A DNA stretch of 64,000 nt from Colwellia sp. Arc7-635 (GTDB taxonomy: Bacteria > Pseudomonadota > Gammaproteobacteria > Enterobacterales > Alteromonadaceae), in contig NZ_CP034660.1 in the NCBI RefSeq assembly GCF_003971255.1, positions 2,790,001-2,854,000 on the forward strand, written 5' to 3'. Made by a program: the position numbers and the translations under genes. Every line of letters begins with the position of its first letter. The first letter of the stretch is position 1. This document shows, one piece after another, positions 6,373 through 64,000 of the stretch. Below the pieces are notes generated by a model. That model was not told the origin of the DNA. It was given only the letters and a program-made list of their open reading frames with translations, and did no database searches.

Positions 6373-8794
6373 ATTTTATTCTAGATTTAGCTCCGTCTGA
6401 GGTATCGATTTGTGGCGTACAAAATAATAATCTAGAAGACGGTACTTTTAATTGATCAACCATATGTGCTTTAAAAATTTCAACTCTCTGCTGAGATATG
6501 GCTTTTAAACGCGCAATATTTTCAGGCTGCTGCACTTTTGATGTATCTGATAAGTCGATGTCACTAGCAGTCGCTATAGCGCAAAGTTTAACATTAACGC
6601 TACCTCTGTCTGCTAACATCACAGACATCTGGCGAGAAAACTCTAACTGCTCAGTATTTAATTCAACTTCACTAGCAAGGTAATTTAAATCATTTATTCT
6701 CAATTTTAATGCAAACTCACCCGCAGCCATGGCAATTTTCATAACACCAGCATAAGGTACAAATGTAGTCATGAGATAATCTTTTGCAGCTGACATCGTC
6801 GCCTGTTTAACCAATAAGGTGAGTAAACCTGAAAAGCCAAACGATGGAGAGCTGGTATCACCGCTCAGTGGCAACGACAACTCAACATTCCCATCTGAAT
6901 CCTTCAACATTCCTAAAGCAATATTGAATGGTACACTCGTTTGATCGGTTAACGTACCGGCTTCATGATCATCAGCAGCGGTAAACTCTATCCCTCTAAG
7001 TAATAAGTCAACATCACCATCAAGCATTGTGCCAGTTAAGCTAGCCTCAATGGTTAAATCGAGTTGACCACTCTCAATTTCGTATTTCAGTGCATCTTTG
7101 ATGTAACTAGAAACGCCAGGTAAACTCACTTCTTTGACAACCGCATTTACATTGAATTTTTGCTGCGTAGCAAAAGGTAATCCACGTCCCTTAATATCAA
7201 AGTTTGCATATTTATCGCTTTTTCCTTTCATAGCGAATAGCGCCTCTTGCTCGGGCTTGCTACTATCAATACCGGATAAAGATAAATGCTCAATACTAAC
7301 GTTGCGCTCATAATGTGGTGTGACACTGCTATCTTTAAAATCAATTTTTGCTTGGTCAAGCAAGGTAAAACTACCTAATTTAAAAACTAATTCAGCATTA
7401 TCATTTATAGCGTCACTGTTCGCCTTGTCAGCGTTGCTACTTTCTTCCTTGGCCTTGGTTATTTCTTCATTAGCCTTGCCCAATTGCTCTGGCTCCGCCA
7501 TGTTAATGTCTGTGTCGCTTTTAACATTAGCCAAGGTAACAAGTGTTGCTATGTTTTTATCTTTATCTAATAAGAGATGCGCAATCAATCCAGACAAAGT
7601 AATGTTGTCAATCGCGACCAGTTCAGGTTCATACTTAATGTTATTTAACACAAGTTCATTAAAAGATGCTAATGCTGGTATATCATCTGCTAGCGTTTTA
7701 GAGAACTCACTGTTCGCTATTCGAACACGCTCAACAGCTACTTTGGGGATCGCTTGTTTGTATGCTAAGGCAAAATTACTTACTTCTATATCAGCTATTT
7801 GTGCTAATAACTCACCTTTATTTATTGATTTAGCAGATATCCCTGAAACGCTATAGTTTAATACGGTATTAACACTTACAGGACTATCTGCAGGTAATAA
7901 AACAGCAACACGTTCAGCTTGCACTTTTTGTTCATCAACACCAATAGCAATGCCATCTTGTTCAATGTGAAAATCTTTCACTGCAAACAATAAATCATTT
8001 ACATCGAGAGCAATTTGTCCGTCTTCCATGGTGATGATTATTTTACTGGCATAACTGACATTACCATCGAGTGCAGACAGTGCCGGTGGTAAAAATGCAT
8101 TGGCAGGCGCTAATGCAATATTATCTGCATCAACATCCAGTTTTATTTGACCTTGTTGCTTCACCAAATTAGCATTTAAAGCGATTGCAATAGGTGCACC
8201 GTTTAAGTGGCTAACGACATTTAAATTAATGTCTTGTGTACTTTGCGATAATAAAATATTGTCTAATGTCACGCTATCCAATTGAATATTATGCTTTTGT
8301 GAAAAATGCATTAACGCTATATTCGCATCAGTTAAGGTCAACTGAGGAATGATAATTTCATAAGGGAAATTAGTCTCTGAAGGGGTAGTTTCCACTTCTT
8401 CAGAGGCTGCTTTTTCGCCCATTAATTCAAAGCCAGCAATATTAAGCGATGTGTCATTAATTGTGACTGGAATAAAGATGCCATTAACGCTAAATTCCGA
8501 CACATAAATCTTATCAAAAAGAAGTTGGTGTAACTTTAATTCGGCATCAAGACTTTGTAATTGAAGCGTTTTATTTTTAGCATCTGTCTTTATTTCTAAA
8601 TGACTAATCGTTAAATGCGCTGTGAATGGGTTATAACGAATACTTGATTCATCAGTCAATAAAAGCGGTTGCGGTAAACCATAAGTATTAATGACATAAC
8701 GAATAATAACAGGTGACATCAACCAAATAACAAAATAAAGCGCAATGAAGCTGATAACAATAATTTTACTAAGGCGTTTAAGATAACGACTCAT
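6362..8794 (-). CDS. DUF748 (AsmA-like) envelope protein
   Basis: An 810-residue protein with one N-terminal transmembrane helix (about residues 10-30) and a long periplasmic part. The start of that part, with RYVINTYGLPQPLLLTDESS followed by RYNPFTAHLTI, is typical of DUF748, a relative of the AsmA/TamB lipid-transfer family. An Ala/Glu/Lys-rich linker lies near residues 430-460. The C-terminus resembles the OmpA-like region often annotated at the end of DUF748 proteins. Family members are thought to act in envelope lipid homeostasis between the membranes. It is transcribed leftward alone or with the tiny frame downstream, and ends near a bidirectional terminator. Confidence 0.85.
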   Translation of the reverse strand: MSRYLKRLSKIIVISFIALYFVIWLMSPVIIRYVINTYGLPQPLLLTDESSIRYNPFTAHLTISHLEIKTDAKNKTLQLQSLDAELKLHQLLFDKIYVSEFSVNGIFIPVTINDTSLNIAGFELMGEKAASEEVETTPSETNFPYEIIIPQLTLTDANIALMHFSQKHNIQLDSVTLDNILLSQSTQDINLNVVSHLNGAPIAIALNANLVKQQGQIKLDVDADNIALAPANAFLPPALSALDGNVSYASKIIITMEDGQIALDVNDLLFAVKDFHIEQDGIAIGVDEQKVQAERVAVLLPADSPVSVNTVLNYSVSGISAKSINKGELLAQIADIEVSNFALAYKQAIPKVAVERVRIANSEFSKTLADDIPALASFNELVLNNIKYEPELVAIDNITLSGLIAHLLLDKDKNIATLVTLANVKSDTDINMAEPEQLGKANEEITKAKEESSNADKANSDAINDNAELVFKLGSFTLLDQAKIDFKDSSVTPHYERNVSIEHLSLSGIDSSKPEQEALFAMKGKSDKYANFDIKGRGLPFATQQKFNVNAVVKEVSLPGVSSYIKDALKYEIESGQLDLTIEASLTGTMLDGDVDLLLRGIEFTAADDHEAGTLTDQTSVPFNIALGMLKDSDGNVELSLPLSGDTSSPSFGFSGLLTLLVKQATMSAAKDYLMTTFVPYAGVMKIAMAAGEFALKLRINDLNYLASEVELNTEQLEFSRQMSVMLADRGSVNVKLCAIATASDIDLSDTSKVQQPENIARLKAISQQRVEIFKAHMVDQLKVPSSRLLFCTPQIDTSDGAKSRIKFVI

Positions 8795-58518: not shown

Positions 58519-58897
58519 TGTACATTTTCCTTAAATTAAGAGTTCCATCAAAGAGTGGTAATCGTGTTAAAAATCGCACGCTAATAGGGCTTATTATTTC
58601 TAATACTCTAACTGCATTGATTTTTTTTGACAATATAAACGTTAATAGTTTTACCAAAAAGTCGACGGAGGATACATTGAGAGCATACATTGCAAGCATA
58701 CATTGCCACCCATAATAATAATAAATAAAAATAACTTCTTAATGGAAATATATTCAGTGAGTTTAAACATTCATTTACTGAATTATACTGCTTCTACTTG
58801 ATTATTTGTCCTAGGTATTTACAAATCACTAAATTTTAGATGTGTTAAGCCCATAGCTGCTAGGCAAACATTATATTGCGCGGGTTAGGAAATTGAC
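58519..58897. other. Intergenic stretch left of the transposase
   Basis: About 379 bases without a supported gene. It contains a short repeated AGCATACATTG pattern (58680-58702). No attC site is recognised here, so the integron array appears to end at the transposase. Confidence 0.5.
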
Positions 58898-59878
58898 TTA
58901 TGCGCTATTCAAACATACTTTAGCATTCGCTAGGCCATGTGTTCTTTTTAAACCTATATGCTCGCTAAACTCACATAAATGCTCTGCTGTGCCTACCGCA
59001 CCGGTGAATATACCTTCAAAGTCGGTCGTGAGCTTTAACCAACTTTCATTACTTATGTGTAGTCTTCTCAGTATGTTTGTCGTTGCAGGGTTAATAGCAC
59101 CGCGTTTATCATCTCTAAGTATACGACCCGTTTCATCAACAAGTGTTAAATAATCTCGTAAGCTAAACTGTATACCTTTCGTTTTACTTTCATGCTCATT
59201 GCCGATAAAAGGCAACAATGTGGTGGGTTGTGTACCTTTTATGGCGGCTTTAATGCGTAATTGAATGCTGGTGAAGTTTGATTGCTCCGGTGTCGGTGCA
59301 ATAGCCGCGCGAACAGGATTTAAATCAACATAGGCCATACAGGACAATAAAGCTCCTTCATCAAGGAGGGCTTGTGATTTAAAGCGCCCTTCCCAAAAAT
59401 GTCCTGTGCATTTGTCTTCTTGGTTTGCTTGTCGCGCGATAGGCTCGTTCAGGGCTCGCATAAACCAGCTGATATCAATTAGCCGTTGTTTATAAATCTC
59501 TACGGTGCTTTCAACCATGTCGAGTTGAAACTTATCAAGTAGCTGTTTATTTGTGTATTGTTGAGTAAGTATCGTACCCTTAAATAATCGATGCCAGCGT
59601 GTTAGTACATCTTCAGTTGTCCAACCTTTCACTTGCTCACTATCGACATGTAATACCAGGTGTAAATGATTATGCATAACCGCATGGGCGCAAATATCAA
59701 TAGCAAACACCTGCGCTAATTGAAATATACGCTGTTCAATCCATTTACGTCGATGTTCAAAACTAACGCCGGTCTCTTTGTCTACACCACATAAAAAAGC
59801 CTTTCGTACCGTGCGGCTACAAATATGATAATACGGTGTATCTGATAAACTGATTTGTTGTGAACGAGGTTTAGCCAT
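58898..59878 (-). mobile_element. RAYT-type (Y1, HUH) transposase gene
   Basis: A 326-residue protein, start taken at MAKPRSQQISLSDTPYYHIC (ATG at 59878). It belongs to the Y1_Tnp/IS200-like group: HUH motif in MHNHLHLVLHV (about residues 73-83), the catalytic Tyr region near residue 180 (SCMAYVDLNPVRAA), and the typical opening HICSRTVRKAFLCG. These REP-associated tyrosine transposases act on single-stranded hairpins. The upstream flank is duplicated in tandem and reaches into the last integron attC site, so it marks the end of the cassette array. Confidence 0.88.
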
Positions 59879-60100
59879 GACAGTCACCAAATGCAATGGA
59901 GGTAAAATAAGCTTAGTTTATTGAGCGAAATATAGACAAGTTATTGTGGGTGGCCTGATAAGTTCTGATGTATCCGATAAACTGATTTGTTGTGAACGAG
60001 GTTTAGCCATGACAGTCACCAAATGCAATGGAGGTAAAATAAGCTTAGTTTATTGAGCGAAATATAGACAAGTTATTATGGGTGGCCTGATAAGTTAAAA
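59837..60100. repeat. 132-bp tandem duplication including the 5' end of the transposase gene
   Basis: Bases 59837-59968 and 59969-60100 are near-identical (for example TGTATCTGATAAACTG and TGTATCCGATAAACTG, and both carry AATGCAATGGAGGTAAAATA). Each unit includes the transposase start region and its leader. The second unit ends at the remnant of the last attC. Confidence 0.9.
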
Positions 60101-60159
60101 TGTGTAGCGGAGCGGAACTAGCCAACTGTTATTTGTCCCGCTTGAATAGTTTGTTATGT
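60098..60159 (-). repeat. Truncated integron attC site (cassette 6)
   Basis: The inner half of an attC is intact, with GCCAACTGTTATTTGTCC and the core-type TTGTTATGT (60152-60159), matching the other attC sites. The outer half with TAACGCC is replaced by the transposase flank repeat. Confidence 0.75.
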
Positions 60160-60176
60160 TTACAATACTGCCAAAC

Positions 60177-60413
60177 TTAACCGGCAATATATATAACCCA
60201 ACCAACAATTAAAGTGATTGCGCTAATGAAAACCAGCTTATTAATTACCTTATGTTTTTTTGAGTAGCCAAACATTAAAATACACCAACCAATTATTGTG
60301 CTGAAACCTAATGGTAAATTTGAGTAGTTAAGAGCTAAAGTTCCTAAGCTAACACCCAATAAAAGTGAAAACAAAACGATGATTGAATTAATTTGATTGG
60401 TACTCAAATCCAT
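60177..60413 (-). CDS. Integron cassette 6: small membrane protein
   Basis: A 78-residue protein with three hydrophobic segments (about residues 8-26, 33-49 and 58-76), a short Lys-rich loop (YSKKHKVINK) between the second and third, and no other feature. No family is recognised. It lies in cassette 6 between attC5 and the truncated attC6, in the same leftward orientation as all other cassette genes. It is the most distal cassette from attI. Confidence 0.7.
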   Translation of the reverse strand: MDLSTNQINSIIVLFSLLLGVSLGTLALNYSNLPLGFSTIIGWCILMFGYSKKHKVINKLVFISAITLIVGWVIYIAG

Positions 60414-60441
60414 TTATTAATGCTCAATTCCAATGTAAACA

Positions 60442-60535
60442 TAACGCCCAATTAACAGGCTAAAAATAGTTGGTTAAAATGGCGACGCAGGAGCAAAAAC
60501 CAACTGTTTTTTGTCCTTGTTTAATTTCTTGTTAT
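60442..60535 (-). repeat. Integron attC site (cassette 5)
   Basis: From TAACGCC at the left to TTGTTA at the right (+ strand). The inner arms AGTTGG and CCAACT are complementary, as in VCR-like attC hairpins. About 93 bases. Confidence 0.9.
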
Positions 60536-60538
60536 GTT

Positions 60539-61084
60539 TTACTTGAACGGTGAATTTTGGCATTTATCTAGATGTAATTCACTTAGCTTTTTCATTTTTT
60601 TATCAAGCTCTTCCCATAGTGGATTTACTTCATAAGTATTACACTGAAAACGATAATAATTAGGACTAAAGTCCTCTCTTAGCATCGGCTGTATAACCAA
60701 ACTTGGGCTAAGTAAGGATTTATCACTTTTATCTGTTACGGCATCTTCTTTAACTTCCTGCAAAGTAATTTCAAAGGACACTCTTTCTTCATCGTGGCAC
60801 TTATTTGAACTACTATTTCTAGAATACTCAGGATTCAAAACGATTAATTTATTTATAATTATTTCAATTTCGTTATGAAGCTCTTGATTAACTTTTTGAC
60901 TGCAAGGGACATTTTGAAAAAATTGGCCATTTGAAATTACCAATTTTTTATTTGAGTCTAACCAGAGCATTGTATTGAACCCCCAACTACTCCAATTTTT
61001 ATAATGTAACACCCATGGTTCACTCTCGCTCCCAAATGAACTAAAGGGCAATATGATTAGAAATAATAATATATGAGGCTTCAT
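60539..61084 (-). CDS. Integron cassette 5: secreted protein of unknown function
   Basis: A 181-residue protein with a signal peptide (about residues 1-17, cleavage near SSFGSES). The mature part is polar with a short Trp-rich start (YKNWSSWGFNTMLWLDSNK) and three Cys (VPCSQ, NKCHDEE, FQCNT) that could pair. A good ribosome site (AAGGAGTGTAATG) precedes the start. No family recognised. It is the gene of the cassette ending in attC 60442-60535. Confidence 0.75.
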   Translation of the reverse strand: MKPHILLFLIILPFSSFGSESEPWVLHYKNWSSWGFNTMLWLDSNKKLVISNGQFFQNVPCSQKVNQELHNEIEIIINKLIVLNPEYSRNSSSNKCHDEERVSFEITLQEVKEDAVTDKSDKSLLSPSLVIQPMLREDFSPNYYRFQCNTYEVNPLWEELDKKMKKLSELHLDKCQNSPFK

Positions 61085-61102
61085 TACACTCCTTGTAAAA
61101 CA

Positions 61103-61196
61103 TAACGCCCTAAATAACAGGCAAAAAATTGTTTGCTAAAATGTTGAGGAACGAAAACAGCAAACTGTTTTTTGTCCTTGTTTATTAGCTTGTTAT
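61103..61196 (-). repeat. Integron attC site (cassette 4)
   Basis: TAACGCC at 61103 to TTGTTA at 61195. The inner arms are GTTTGCT and AGCAAAC. It lies immediately downstream of the cassette 4 gene. Confidence 0.9.
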
Positions 61197-61630
61197 ATGG
61201 CATTTGCACGAGAATCGCAATATTGTTTTAAAATACCAAGATAAAACTCATTGCTTTTCGTACTAATAACCGTTGCCATAAAACTTGGATTATGTGGTTT
61301 ACGAAAATGCGCAGTGAACTTAGCCTCTTGTTCATCTGTGTCAGCAAAATACCGTTCTATTATTTCAAGGCCGCATTCGAGCTTAATTATTTTATTTATC
61401 TCGCCAACCTCTACATGCTTTGCATTAAAAAATTTAGGTAATGACCTTTCGTAACTAAACAAGTTATTGCTACCGACCTTAAAGATAAAACCAAAATCAC
61501 CAATTGGCATAATAGAAGTATTGGTCGGTATTTTTATAGTTCCATCAAAGAAACTAAATTCAGTACCTTTGGATTCATTTGAATGGCTCAAGAAACTTGT
61601 TAATACAATTAAAGCTAGAATTAATCTCAT
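61193..61630 (-). CDS. Integron cassette 4: secreted protein of unknown function
   Basis: A 145-residue protein from the ATG at 61628-61630. The open frame runs 12 codons further up but these are encoded by the neighbouring attC core, so the inner Met is chosen; it opens a signal peptide (MRLILALIVLTSFLSHS). The mature part (GTEFSFFDGTIKIPTNTSIM) has two Cys near the middle and end (LECGLEII, QYCDSRANA). The stop overlaps the attC. No family recognised. Confidence 0.75.
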   Translation of the reverse strand: MRLILALIVLTSFLSHSNESKGTEFSFFDGTIKIPTNTSIMPIGDFGFIFKVGSNNLFSYERSLPKFFNAKHVEVGEINKIIKLECGLEIIERYFADTDEQEAKFTAHFRKPHNPSFMATVISTKSNEFYLGILKQYCDSRANAI

Positions 61631-61645
61631 AGTCCCGATGCCATA

Positions 61646-61741
61646 TAACGCCGTTTTAAGCGGCAAATTGCTGTTGGCTAAAATAAGTGAGGCACGAACA
61701 AAAAGCCAACTGTAATTTGTCCGACTTGAAAACCCTTGTTA
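61646..61741 (-). repeat. Integron attC site (cassette 3)
   Basis: TAACGCC at 61646 to TTGTTA at 61741. The inner arms are TTGGCT and AGCCAA. About 96 bases. Confidence 0.9.
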
Positions 61742-62089
61742 GGTATTCTTAGCACGCTTTCTTGCAGGCTTTTGAAATACCGATTTTGGTACTACTACAG
61801 GTTTTGGTTTATCAATGGTTTCCACTACTTTAAATGGATTACCAAAATCTGGTTTAAATTTATAACCACTTTCGAATAATGGACGAAGCTTTTCCCAAGC
61901 TTTTATATCGTTTAGCTTCGGTGCCTTAAATGCTGAACCAGTTTCAAAAGTTTTTCCTTGGCATTGAGGGCAAACTACTTCGTATTCTACTTCCGTCCAT
62001 GCACCTGTGCTAGATTGATCGTACTTATGCTTTTTGAATACTTTCCTACAATCTAGACATGCAAACTTTGCAGTAATACTCGACTTCAT
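61739..62089 (-). CDS. Integron cassette 3: zinc-ribbon protein
   Basis: A 116-residue cytosolic protein. Two Cys pairs, FACLDCRKVF (about residues 9-13) and VVCPQCQGKT (about residues 38-43), form a probable four-Cys zinc ribbon. The C-terminus is basic and Pro/Lys-rich (IDKPKPVVVPKSVFQK, ending RKRAKNT), fitting nucleic-acid contact. The start is 12 bases inside the cassette and the stop is in the attC core. Function is unknown. Confidence 0.78.
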   Translation of the reverse strand: MKSSITAKFACLDCRKVFKKHKYDQSSTGAWTEVEYEVVCPQCQGKTFETGSAFKAPKLNDIKAWEKLRPLFESGYKFKPDFGNPFKVVETIDKPKPVVVPKSVFQKPARKRAKNT

Positions 62090-62099
62090 CCTGAATACC

Positions 62100-62187
62100 T
62101 AACGCTTTGCTAAGGGGCAAATAATACGTTTGCTATAATGCGCGAAGCGCAGCAAACTGTTATTTGTCCGTTTGAGCAACTTGTTAT
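62100..62187 (-). repeat. Integron attC site (cassette 2)
   Basis: TAACGCT at 62100 to TTGTTA at 62186. The inner arms are GTTTGCT and AGCAAAC. At about 88 bases it is the shortest of the set. Confidence 0.9.
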
Positions 62188-62415
62188 ATGCAACGGTGGT
62201 TGTAGCCAAACACTGCACGAAATTAAGTCACCCGTAATAATAAAACCTGACCGTGAACTTTTACGCTACACACGCAAGGTTGAACAAAATTAATAGCGTT
62301 GCCACCTTTAAAAAAGGTAAAAGAGGCAATGCTTATTAAAGCTGAGACAAACTAGTTTTAGCGAAAAACTACGAACTAGAAAGTACTTTATTTAAAGCTA
62401 ATTTTTAATAGCATA
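62188..62415 (-). other. Integron cassette 2: no convincing gene
   Basis: About 228 bases between two attC sites. The longest leftward frame (about 62223-62351, 42 codons with no ATG, GTG or TTG start; part reads KGGNAINFVQPCVC) has a weak case. It may be a non-coding cassette, carry a promoter or small RNA, or hold a decayed gene. Confidence 0.6.
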
Positions 62416-62511
62416 TAACGCCTCGTTAAGAGGCAAATAATATGTTGGATAAAATAAGCGACGCAGGAGCAAAAGCCAACTGTTATTTGTCCTGCTTGAA
62501 CGACTTGTTAT
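62416..62511 (-). repeat. Integron attC site (cassette 1)
   Basis: TAACGCC at 62416 to TTGTTA at 62510. The inner arms are GTTGG and CCAAC. It is about 96 bases and closest to attI. Confidence 0.9.
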
Positions 62512-62533
62512 AAGTAATTATTAAGGAACAGTT

Positions 62534-62677
62534 ATGGATATTATTTTAATGCTTCTACTTCTTCCGTTTGCGACTGCGGGTTTAGCGTTTTACTTAGGGT
62601 GGGTTTTACATAAAAATCGTATAACGCCATACCTGCAAGAGTTAGAAGAAAAGCTAATAGAGCGCCAACAATCATGA
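62534..62677 (+). CDS. Possible 47-residue membrane peptide antisense to the cassette 1 gene
   Basis: A frame with a good ribosome site (AAGGAACAGTTATGG) encodes one hydrophobic helix (MDIILMLLLLPFATAGLAFY) and a charged tail (LQELEEKLIERQQS). It runs against the 3' half of the cassette 1 gene, and both strands encode a membrane segment there. It may be a chance frame; the ribosome site and charge pattern make it worth listing. Confidence 0.3.
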   Translation: MDIILMLLLLPFATAGLAFYLGWVLHKNRITPYLQELEEKLIERQQS

Positions 62678-62879
62678 TTTTCCATCCTTCATTATTGTTG
62701 GCTCGTGGCTTTTTTATAGCTACAAATAATTTAGTTACCTGCGGAGTGATTGGATCGTCTCGTTCTTCAATGGCGGTACCTGTGTTGGTTATTTCAGCAT
62801 TATCTATTGTCGCGGTAGAATTTTTCGGTAGCGAAATACCTGTGTTACATTTATCTATTTTTACATTTGTGATTTTCAA
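62541..62879 (-). CDS. Integron cassette 1: membrane-anchored protein with beta-helix-like N-terminus
   Basis: A 112-residue protein with a TTG start. A strong ribosome site (AGGAG, 62888-62892 on the complement) sits eight bases before it and decides the start. Residues 1-45 show NTGI/ATIDNAEITNTGTAI-type repeats like right-handed beta-helix rungs. A transmembrane helix lies at about residues 69-90 (IMIVGALLAFLLTLAGMALY), followed by a short polar tail. As the attI-proximal cassette it should be the most strongly expressed from Pc. No family is recognised. Confidence 0.72.
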   Translation of the reverse strand: MKITNVKIDKCNTGISLPKNSTATIDNAEITNTGTAIEERDDPITPQVTKLFVAIKKPRANNNEGWKIMIVGALLAFLLTLAGMALYDFYVKPTLSKTLNPQSQTEEVEALK

Positions 62880-62906
62880 TAGGGTAACTCCTATGCGTGA
62901 GATTAC

Positions 62907-62913
62907 TTATAAC
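62907..62913 (-). other. Integron attI core (cassette 1 junction)
   Basis: The core site TTATAAC on the plus strand (GTTATAA on the cassette-sense strand) marks the attI junction. It lies 28 bases upstream of the cassette 1 start. The exact extent of attI cannot be read from sequence alone. Confidence 0.6.
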
Positions 62914-62983
62914 AGTTTATTAGACGGAAAATTTCCGCCTTTCCACAAGCGAAATGTCCATCTAATGAATATTTATTCAAATC

Positions 62984-63012
62984 AATATACATAACTTAAT
63001 ATTATTATTCAA
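62984..63012 (-). promoter_or_regulatory. Probable cassette promoter Pc
   Basis: On the minus strand, TTGAAT (63007-63012) and TATATT (62984-62989) are separated by 17 bases and point into the cassettes from between attI and intI. This is the expected location and direction of Pc. Confidence 0.6.
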
Positions 63013-63041
63013 TACGTTATTGTTAAGCGCTGAATAATGAG

Positions 63042-63076
63042 TTGTAGAAAGGCAGATTTAATCTGCCTTTCTACAA
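63042..63076. other. Perfect 16-bp hairpin between attI and intI
   Basis: The two 16-base arms (63042-63057 and 63061-63076, starting TTGTAGAAAGGCAGAT) are perfectly complementary around loop TTA. No T run follows on either strand, so it is not a standard terminator. It sits between the Pc and intI signals. Confidence 0.8.
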
Positions 63077-63098
63077 AAAAGCGGGAAACATGACTGCA

Positions 63099-63114
63099 CT
63101 GTACAAACAAACAG
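63099..63114 (+). promoter_or_regulatory. LexA (SOS) box of the integrase gene
   Basis: CTGT-N8-ACAG (CTGTACAAACAAACAG), extended by A and TA at the edges, is a perfect match to the gammaproteobacterial LexA core. It lies 29 bases before the intI ATG. Repression by LexA and induction by DNA damage is the known rule for such integrases. Confidence 0.9.
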
Positions 63115-63142
63115 TACCCATTTAAATTATTAAGGAAGAATA

Positions 63143-64000
63143 ATGAAATCAGAATTTCTCTCGCATATTAAAGAAACAATGTGGGCCAGACGCTATGCTA
63201 AACGTACGATTGAGTCTTATTTATATTGGATTAAAGCTTACATAATTTTCATTGGCAAAGTTCATCCTAAAGACTGCCATGATAAAGAGGTTGAAAGATT
63301 TTTAAGTTACCTTTCTAATAATCTAAATCTTGCGCCAAAATCTCAAGCATTAGCATTAAACTCTGTTAACTATTTGTATAAATATATTTTAGTTAAACCA
63401 CTTAGTCTTGATTTGCGCTTTAATAAATCTAGAGTGAACCCAAAACTACCGTCAGTACTAACTGCACCAGAAGTAAAAGCACTTTTATCGGCTATAAGTA
63501 TAAACCACCTTTTACTTTGCCAATTAATGTATGGCAGTGGCTTAAGATTAATGGAGGCTGTGCGCTTAAGAGTACAAGATATAAATTTTGACTATCATTG
63601 TATCGAAGTATGGAACGGCAAAGGTGGTAAACACAGAACGGTTACCCTCGCAACTGAACTAACTACAGCACTTATAGAGCAAATATCATTGGTTAGGTCT
63701 TATTATGTATTAGATATGAGGAATGATAATTATTCTGGCGTATATTTGCCTTTTGCTTTAGCGAGAAAATACCCGAGTGCTGCTAAAACATTTAATTGGC
63801 ATTATTTATTCCCATCAAATCGATTATCTTTAGATCCTGAGGTCAATAAATTAAGACGCCATCATATAAACGAAACGGCAATTCAAAAAGCTATAAAGAG
63901 AGCATCTAAAAAATCAGGTATAGATAAAAACATAACTTGTCATACTTTACGACACTCATTTGCAACACATTTACTTCAAAGAGGTGCCGACATTCGGACG
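63143..64000 (+). CDS. intI: Integron integrase IntI, cut by the window edge
   Basis: The first 286 codons of a tyrosine recombinase (usual length about 320). AAGGAAGAATA precedes the ATG. The N-terminal SAM-like domain is followed by the catalytic part: Arg135 in YGSGLRLMEAVRLRVQDI, the Lys of GKGGKHR and HTLRHS with His267 and Arg270. The IntI-specific insertion is present between the boxes (ARKYPSAAKTFNWHYLFPS), which separates it from XerC/XerD. The last His and the Tyr lie beyond position 64000. It inserts and excises cassettes at attI/attC. LexA controlled. Confidence 0.95.
   Translation, partial: MKSEFLSHIKETMWARRYAKRTIESYLYWIKAYIIFIGKVHPKDCHDKEVERFLSYLSNNLNLAPKSQALALNSVNYLYKYILVKPLSLDLRFNKSRVNPKLPSVLTAPEVKALLSAISINHLLLCQLMYGSGLRLMEAVRLRVQDINFDYHCIEVWNGKGGKHRTVTLATELTTALIEQISLVRSYYVLDMRNDNYSGVYLPFALARKYPSAAKTFNWHYLFPSNRLSLDPEVNKLRRHHINETAIQKAIKRASKKSGIDKNITCHTLRHSFATHLLQRGADIRT

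Follow-up and report, generated by a model that had tools for sequence, protein, structure and literature searches.

An integron of Colwellia sp. Arc7-635 and attI-type heads at attC clusters across its chromosome

The stretch of DNA analyzed here, hereafter the window, comprises 64,000 nucleotides of the chromosome of Colwellia sp. Arc7-635 (NZ_CP034660.1, positions 2,790,001 to 2,854,000). It ends within an integron that is composed of an integrase gene, intI, an attachment site, attI, and a row of cassettes with their attC recombination sites. A textbook integron has one attI, and only the few cassettes next to it are therefore expected to be expressed. In this chromosome attC sites are found in 17 further clusters, and the question that the locus raises is whether its integrase (IntI) has a part in them. 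We propose that the chromosome probably holds a distributed integron, in which orphan attI-type heads from several integron lineages are most likely served in trans by the IntI of the window. The further proposal, that one SOS-controlled integrase serves about twenty attI sites of several lineages, with many cassettes first at once, is made tentatively and with slightly less than even confidence.

The integron of the window

The integrase gene, its attachment site, and the attC sites of the array are located in the window as follows. Loci and genomes that were retrieved for comparison are designated by L and G numbers.

63143..64000, plus strand: intI, the integron integrase gene, which runs on to 64108, TAA stop included (7143-8108 of locus L006)
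63099..63114, plus strand: LexA-like box, CTGT-N8-ACAG, preceding intI
63042..63076, no strand assigned: perfect 17-bp inverted repeat between attI and intI, kept in the type A heads described below
62910..62922, minus strand: attI core, TAATAAACTGTTA, abutting cassette 1
62412..62514, minus strand: attC 1, 113 bits, with covariation
62096..62190, minus strand: attC 2, 90.0 bits
61642..61745, minus strand: attC 3, 103.8 bits
61099..61199, minus strand: attC 4, 103.9 bits
60438..60538, minus strand: attC 5, 108.5 bits
60097..60160, minus strand: attC 6, left half only, broken in the apical loop, seen in the alignment (16.9 bits, E 0.12 over 60061-60160)

The product of intI is 321 residues long and scores 448 bits against TIGR02249 (cut-off 265 bits), which identifies it as an integron integrase. 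Residues 1-320 align with the solved IntI4 structure 2A3V (425 bits), and in this alignment, judged by eye, the R...K...H-x-x-R...H...Y positions are kept; the functional roles of these residues are presumed here. The original prediction, made from the sequence of the window, left room for an intI broken just past the window. The gene is complete there, and the position of the catalytic tyrosine is conserved.

The attI site adjoins intI, is joined to the first cassette at GTT, and was aligned with seven other intI-linked regions and with the head of locus L218. The LexA-like box before intI is the sole match to its pattern in the window; 0.65 matches are expected by chance, so the pattern alone is weak. 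The position of the box is conserved in the attI regions aligned from relatives. The SOS response probably controls intI. A promoter scan near intI found four promoter-like sites, compared with 1.8 in shuffled sequences, and this result was left unused.

The five complete attC sites share one structure of 27 pairs, in which 97.0% of 134 cells pair and nine pairs are changed on both sides. None of 500 shuffles reached the pairing or the covariation value, and sliding the partner by one to three columns lowered the pairing to 34-49%. These results are independent of the scores from the attC covariance model, which was built from the same five sites and thus gives them 90-113 bits by construction. 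An Rfam scan returned two chance-level matches, none of them attC-like. The predicted tally of five full sites and one broken site was borne out: the five form one covarying structure, and the apical loop of the sixth is interrupted.

The array stops at 60,096, where the left half of attC 6 meets an element with a RAYT-like gene and repetitive extragenic palindromic (REP) repeats. The missing half of attC 6 was not found beyond this element, by eye or with half-site profiles, and the attC model found no attC in L006 beyond intI. The region had been taken for the proximal part of a longer array, with the sequence beyond 64,000 as the place to follow it. The whole array is present and lies to the left of intI; beyond 64,000 are the end of intI and tRNA genes, and the other cassettes are in the 17 further clusters. 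What the region holds is a short, complete integron of the sedentary chromosomal kind, with intI, attI, and six cassettes, the sixth of which lost half of its attC to the RAYT-like/REP element. The prediction of a sedentary chromosomal integron whose integrase is intact and whose cassettes belong to no assigned family is thus supported by the TIGR02249 score, the 2A3V alignment, the attC covariation, and the library scans given below.

Five tandem tRNA-Asp genes lie 3' of intI at 64429-65010 in window numbering (8429-9010 of L006). In the relative G009, whose IntI is 95% identical, the integron is likewise located by a matching tRNA-Asp sequence, which there too stands behind intI. The intI-bearing array of G009 has 28 array-strand attC matches (E up to 0.1, weak ones counted), compared with the five complete sites in the window.

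attC clusters and their attI-type heads

The attC model built on the window sites also picks up attC sites elsewhere in the genome. The genome-wide search, with E up to 1 as its limit, returned 100 matches, some of them opposite-strand shadows; 150 of 1,349 first-look candidates were scored, and further weak sites are therefore possible. At 38 bits or more there are 91 matches in 18 clusters (31 loci fetched), and the 17 clusters outside the window account for 86 of them. At least two such attC sites are present in 16 of these 17 clusters, which lack intI and are thus clusters of attC sites without an integron integrase (CALINs); the cluster at 936 kb has one.

Searching the genome with the IntI protein at an E threshold of 1e-60, which in relatives sufficed to recover IntI of as little as 37% identity, gave one match. 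A Pfam integrase search pointed to five places, four of them, besides intI, in open frames of 396-422 codons; this search may be lossy because neither XerC nor XerD was listed, judging by length. Within the cluster loci, the IntI search found two short N-terminal remnants and one match with an E of 0.94. The remnants stand at the heads of L218 (codons 1-44, E 0.001) and L215 (codons 2-28, E 2.7e-5). The integron of the window is the only platform found in the chromosome that still has its integrase.

Every one of the 18 attC clusters starts with an attI-type head. There are 20 heads, and they fall into six types.

Type A: the window, L218, and L208
Type B: two in L209, and L210 and L211
Type C: L215 and L217
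Type D: L205, L206, L222, and L223
Type E: L212, L214, two in L216, L220, and L221
Type F: L213

One of the L216 heads has no attC behind it, which leaves 18 occupied among 19 orphan heads. The heads were scored with a profile of the attI-to-intI region. Because eight intI-linked regions and the L218 head went into this profile, the scores of the window and L218 are by construction. One of the eight regions is beside a degraded intI, and another (from G005) has a stop reported in its match. The profile matches most cluster starts in the right orientation, with scores that range between 183 bits (L208) and chance level, the latter for the distant types. The weak matches are backed by similarity among the heads, which added L212, L214, and L221.

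The pattern TAATAARYTGTTA occurs 18 times genome-wide, 15 times at heads, whereas the reversed control pattern occurs five times. Fourteen orphan heads have an exact attI core. When up to one mismatch is allowed, a LexA-like box is present in 13 of the 20 heads, the window included (12 of the 19 orphan heads), compared with 8% of 4,000 random 300-mers from the same loci. The distance from box to core is 191-197 bp in 12 of these 13 heads and 174 bp in one; the box is absent from the six type E heads and from L222. A common left end near CTTTGTGCGCATTG, with differing inner parts, was seen at L205, L206, L210, L216, L221, L223, and L258, which covers types D and E in addition to L210.

Types A and B are recognizable as orphan attI heads over 180-272 bp and type E through locus L280; types C, D, and F are assigned by the core and short matches only. 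The type B heads are 83-94% identical over 237-272 bp to attI sites that adjoin intI in other Colwellia (G003, G008, G014, and G001, the last being C. aestuarii). In these four genomes intI is intact or nearly so, and in three of the four the match reaches about 19 bases into it. Type E is found in 33 of 196 Colwelliaceae genomes, our own included, and in 14 of the 52 genera covered; roughly three candidates were scored in each genome. An attC match (E up to 0.05) is present at 20 of 30 type E loci retrieved, and each of these 20 has one or more attC matches in the same orientation downstream. At one of the 30, L280, the type E core stands beside an intact intI and a LexA-like box. Type D matches occur in ten of the 196 genomes, our own included. 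The preferred reading is that the heads represent attI platforms from several integron lineages, a reading based for types C, D, and F on the core and short matches. At two other type E loci, L262 and L263, the first gene behind the head encodes a tyrosine recombinase 27-29% identical to IntI, and at L273 a tyrosine recombinase fragment precedes the head.

Copies of cassettes connect some of these clusters. In L209 a 432-bp cassette directly follows an orphan type B core; it recurs, 100% identical, as the second cassette of L222, behind an attC. In both copies the identity begins at GTT and stops at GCGTTA. A 521-bp stretch behind the orphan type D core of L223 recurs inside L215 (98.8%). The third pair, L209 and L216 (512 bp, 99.6%), displays the empty site of an IS3-family insertion. 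The first cassettes of L210 (79%) and L215 (84%) have relatives in the intI-bearing array of G009, as do cassettes of L212 (85%), L216 (95%), and L208 (97%). Another G009 cassette matches L224 (81%), a locus where no attC was found. At the G009 place that matches L214, head and array are jointly missing, and 163 bp separate the aligned flanks. This interval includes a terminator-like hairpin that in our genome is found on the right side of the insert. Within the 400 kb examined, L214 was the only cluster for which an empty site could be identified.

Mobile elements and cassette contents

The element that ends the array and the cassettes themselves occupy the following positions.

58705..60096, minus strand: RAYT-like/REP element ending the array, with its gene at 58901-59881 and a 132-bp tandem duplication at 59837-60100
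62541..62879, minus strand: open reading frame (ORF) of cassette 1, 112 residues, TTG start, with a weak beta-helix match and one membrane segment
62190..62417, minus strand: cassette 2, without an ORF of at least 50 residues on the cassette strand
61739..62089, minus strand: ORF of cassette 3, 116 residues, with CxxC pairs; an identical protein is encoded in cluster L209
61193..61630, minus strand: ORF of cassette 4, 145 residues from an inner ATG, with a signal-like start
60539..61084, minus strand: ORF of cassette 5, 181 residues, with a signal-like start
60177..60413, minus strand: ORF of cassette 6, 78 residues, with membrane segments

The RAYT-like gene is flanked by REP-like repeats and falls below the family cut-offs (38.1 against 80 bits for NF047646; 17.4 against 23 bits for Y1_Tnp). 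Such genes with REP-type repeats are present at 15 genome loci. Ten of the 15 are within 3 kb of an attC, seven of these ten in array direction, while DNA within 2-3 kb of attC makes up 3.0-3.8% of the genome. The idea that the element is a transposon that targets attC was rejected. Among the copies looked at, the window copy and a fragment at 672 kb (L206) end in attC apical loops, and the others are inside cassettes, in IS3 copies, or outside arrays. Since attC makes up about a fifth of array DNA by estimate, about two such matches would arise by chance. The enrichment of RAYT-like genes in arrays stands although the targeting claim was dropped.

The insertion sequences have fixed positions. 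All 11 IS110-type transposases are no more than 2 kb from an attC, a zone that takes up 3.0% of the genome, and their junctions are at the R' end in eight of eight copies of one kind and at the R'' end in three of three of the other. In these fixed attC junctions they are like the IS1111-attC elements (Tetu and Holmes 2008 and Post and Hall 2009, as cited in PMC12444791 and PMC11187229), and no novelty is claimed for them. Matches to the rve domain number six: four identical IS3-family copies in clusters, within 2 kb of an attC, and two others at 42 and 104 kb from attC. The IS3-family element has orfA and orfB and similar ends, and its four copies and one fragment (L210) are inserted at GCGTTAN followed by four bases, a fixed place behind attC. 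They lie in L209, L215, L217, L218, and L210, in the same direction as the cassettes. A matching 4-bp duplication is found in two of the four copies and not in the other two. From the 4-bp duplication we take the element to be IS407-like. Its orfA and orfB, ends, and duplication are those of the IS3 family, whereas the fixed GCGTTAN insertion with four bases behind attC sets it apart.

Among seven IS3 copies in relatives, that in L241 alone is behind a model-confirmed attC. Those in L238, L239, and L240 follow a GCGTTA box with equal spacing but no support from the model, those in L236 and L237 are elsewhere, and L243 is cut by a contig end. On plasmids, where five of the 19 matching records were looked at, copies in L246, L248, and L250 (Vibrio) and in L247 (Pseudoalteromonas) are behind Vibrio cholerae repeat (VCR)-like sites, judged by eye, and carry 4-bp duplications; L249 is not behind such a site. 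No description of an IS3-family element tied to attC came up in the portions of the open literature that were searched, and PMC11023631 describes an IS3 copy in the V. cholerae integron as lying within a cassette gene. If this reading is correct, the IS3 family would be a further transposon family that lands at attC, across Colwellia and Vibrio types of attC.

Six ORFs were scanned against the libraries, namely the five cassette proteins of 112, 116, 145, 181, and 78 residues and a 47-residue ORF antisense to that of cassette 1. None reached a curated cut-off in Pfam or NCBIfam, in keeping with the expectation that the cassette products belong to no recognized family; the beta-helix match of the 112-residue protein is below threshold (21.3 bits, cut-off 25.9). 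Integron arrays were earlier described as stores of defence, toxin, and adaptive genes, and these cassettes lend that description no support: none of the six ORFs matches PADLOC at E up to 1, and no anti-phage defence gene is therefore recognized. The best PHROGs match of the six (E 0.033) is not convincing, and a sequence search of solved structures with cassette 5 only gave E 0.33-0.88 at best. Descriptions of the products as secreted, membrane, and zinc-ribbon proteins are plausible from their sequences. The antisense ORF (62534-62677, plus strand) has one membrane segment and AAGGA before its ATG.

In correction of the original prediction, cassette 2 carries no ORF of at least 50 residues on its strand. 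Its DNA is 70-85% identical to stretches in L065, L066, and L064, and partly also to L019/L074, and it is perhaps an RNA cassette. Folded alone it gave no significant structure (z -0.85). One of its hairpins (TTGCC...GGCAA) looks compensated in L064.

A proposal of one integrase for many attI sites

The arrangement may have come about as follows. Several integron lineages would have lost intI and left attI-type heads of six types, some of which would have been copied after the loss. A single IntI, probably SOS-induced, would then act in trans on the orphan attI sites and the attC sites that follow these. One cassette pool would thereby be spread over many docking sites, each with a promoter-region remnant and a short row of cassettes. 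The IntI of the window would have made the cassette insertions at the orphan heads, and the orphan heads of the distant type E may also be its substrates.

Several observations weigh against this proposal. Some profile scores are at chance level on their own (e.g., 4.4 bits for L220), and L212, L213, L214, L215, and L217 have variant cores without the core motif and were recognized by similarity. Of the 18 occupied orphan heads, only two, neither of them of type E, were found to have exact cassette copies, and a recently lost intI could have made these; homologous recombination could have spread some cassettes. The type E attI at L280 goes with an IntI only 40-46% identical to that of the window or its relatives. 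In G009, heads are found at three of the five clusters outside the integron (L255 and L257 of type A, 180 and 193 bits, and L258 of type E), while L260 has a variant core only and at L259 no head was found. Six isolated attC matches below 38 bits (at 744, 805, 2332, 2711, 3706, and 4693 kb) lack an exact core; in two cases (L207 and L219) a core-like word with two mismatches stands upstream, which was left out of the count.

Three other explanations were considered. One holds that the other clusters are the decayed remains of old integrons, whose own lost integrases placed the cassettes, and that nothing acts on them now. The intI remnants at L215 and L218 agree with this, as do the matches of heads to the intI-linked attI of other lineages and the description of CALINs as degraded integrons in PMC9024848 and PMC11389934. 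In addition, the two orphan heads of L209 and the one of L210 share sequence beyond the head, and some copies were thus made after the loss of intI. However, a cassette that is 100% identical at an orphan head asks for recent activity in a genome where only one intI was found, and so many cores have remained exact. We regard decay without further activity as unlikely, though it deserves to be taken seriously.

It is very improbable that RAYT-like or insertion sequence elements carried integron blocks around the chromosome. Their closeness to attC (10 of 15, 11 of 11, and 4 of 6 for the RAYT-like, IS110-type, and IS3-type genes, respectively) and the left end common to type D and type E heads and L210 would fit such carriage. 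Dispersal driven by RAYT-like elements was nevertheless rejected, since G009 has several clusters and yet no RAYT match at E up to 1e-20. A two-ended transposon carrying head and array was likewise set aside, because some heads share a left end but no common right end was found. The fixed attC places of the IS110 and IS3 copies mark these as insertions into arrays. Hardly any credence is given to the last explanation, that IntI scattered cassettes singly into ordinary attG-type chromosomal sites with no attI involved. In E. coli, insertion of this kind has been reported (Loot 2024, cited in PMC12444791 and PMC12901181), but here an attI-type head fronts each of the 18 clusters, which had already told against it, and at L214 the head and the array are both absent from the matching place in G009.

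The distributed integron proposed here resembles known systems in part. It shares with the Vibrio-type sedentary chromosomal integron (IntI4, 2A3V) an IntI of TIGR02249, attI, an attC array, and a LexA-like box, whereas the array is short and most cassettes are in 17 other clusters with attI-type heads of their own. Those clusters are like CALINs in having attC and no intI, yet an attI-type head stands at the start of each, in most cases accompanied by a LexA-like box. PMC12444791 and PMC11389934 state that CALINs can be mobilized in trans, and PMC9024848 calls attI outside class 1 poorly described and not detected by the usual tool. No title or abstract describing orphan or multiple attI sites was found in the open literature searched, with a search term that was partly unspecific.

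If one integrase feeds twenty attI sites, the genome would keep many cassettes in first position, and clusters that have been filed as the ruins of integrons would be working parts. This reading would also offer a testable reason for the persistence of CALINs. The heads described here suggest that attC clusters be searched for attI, a step that the usual tool omits.

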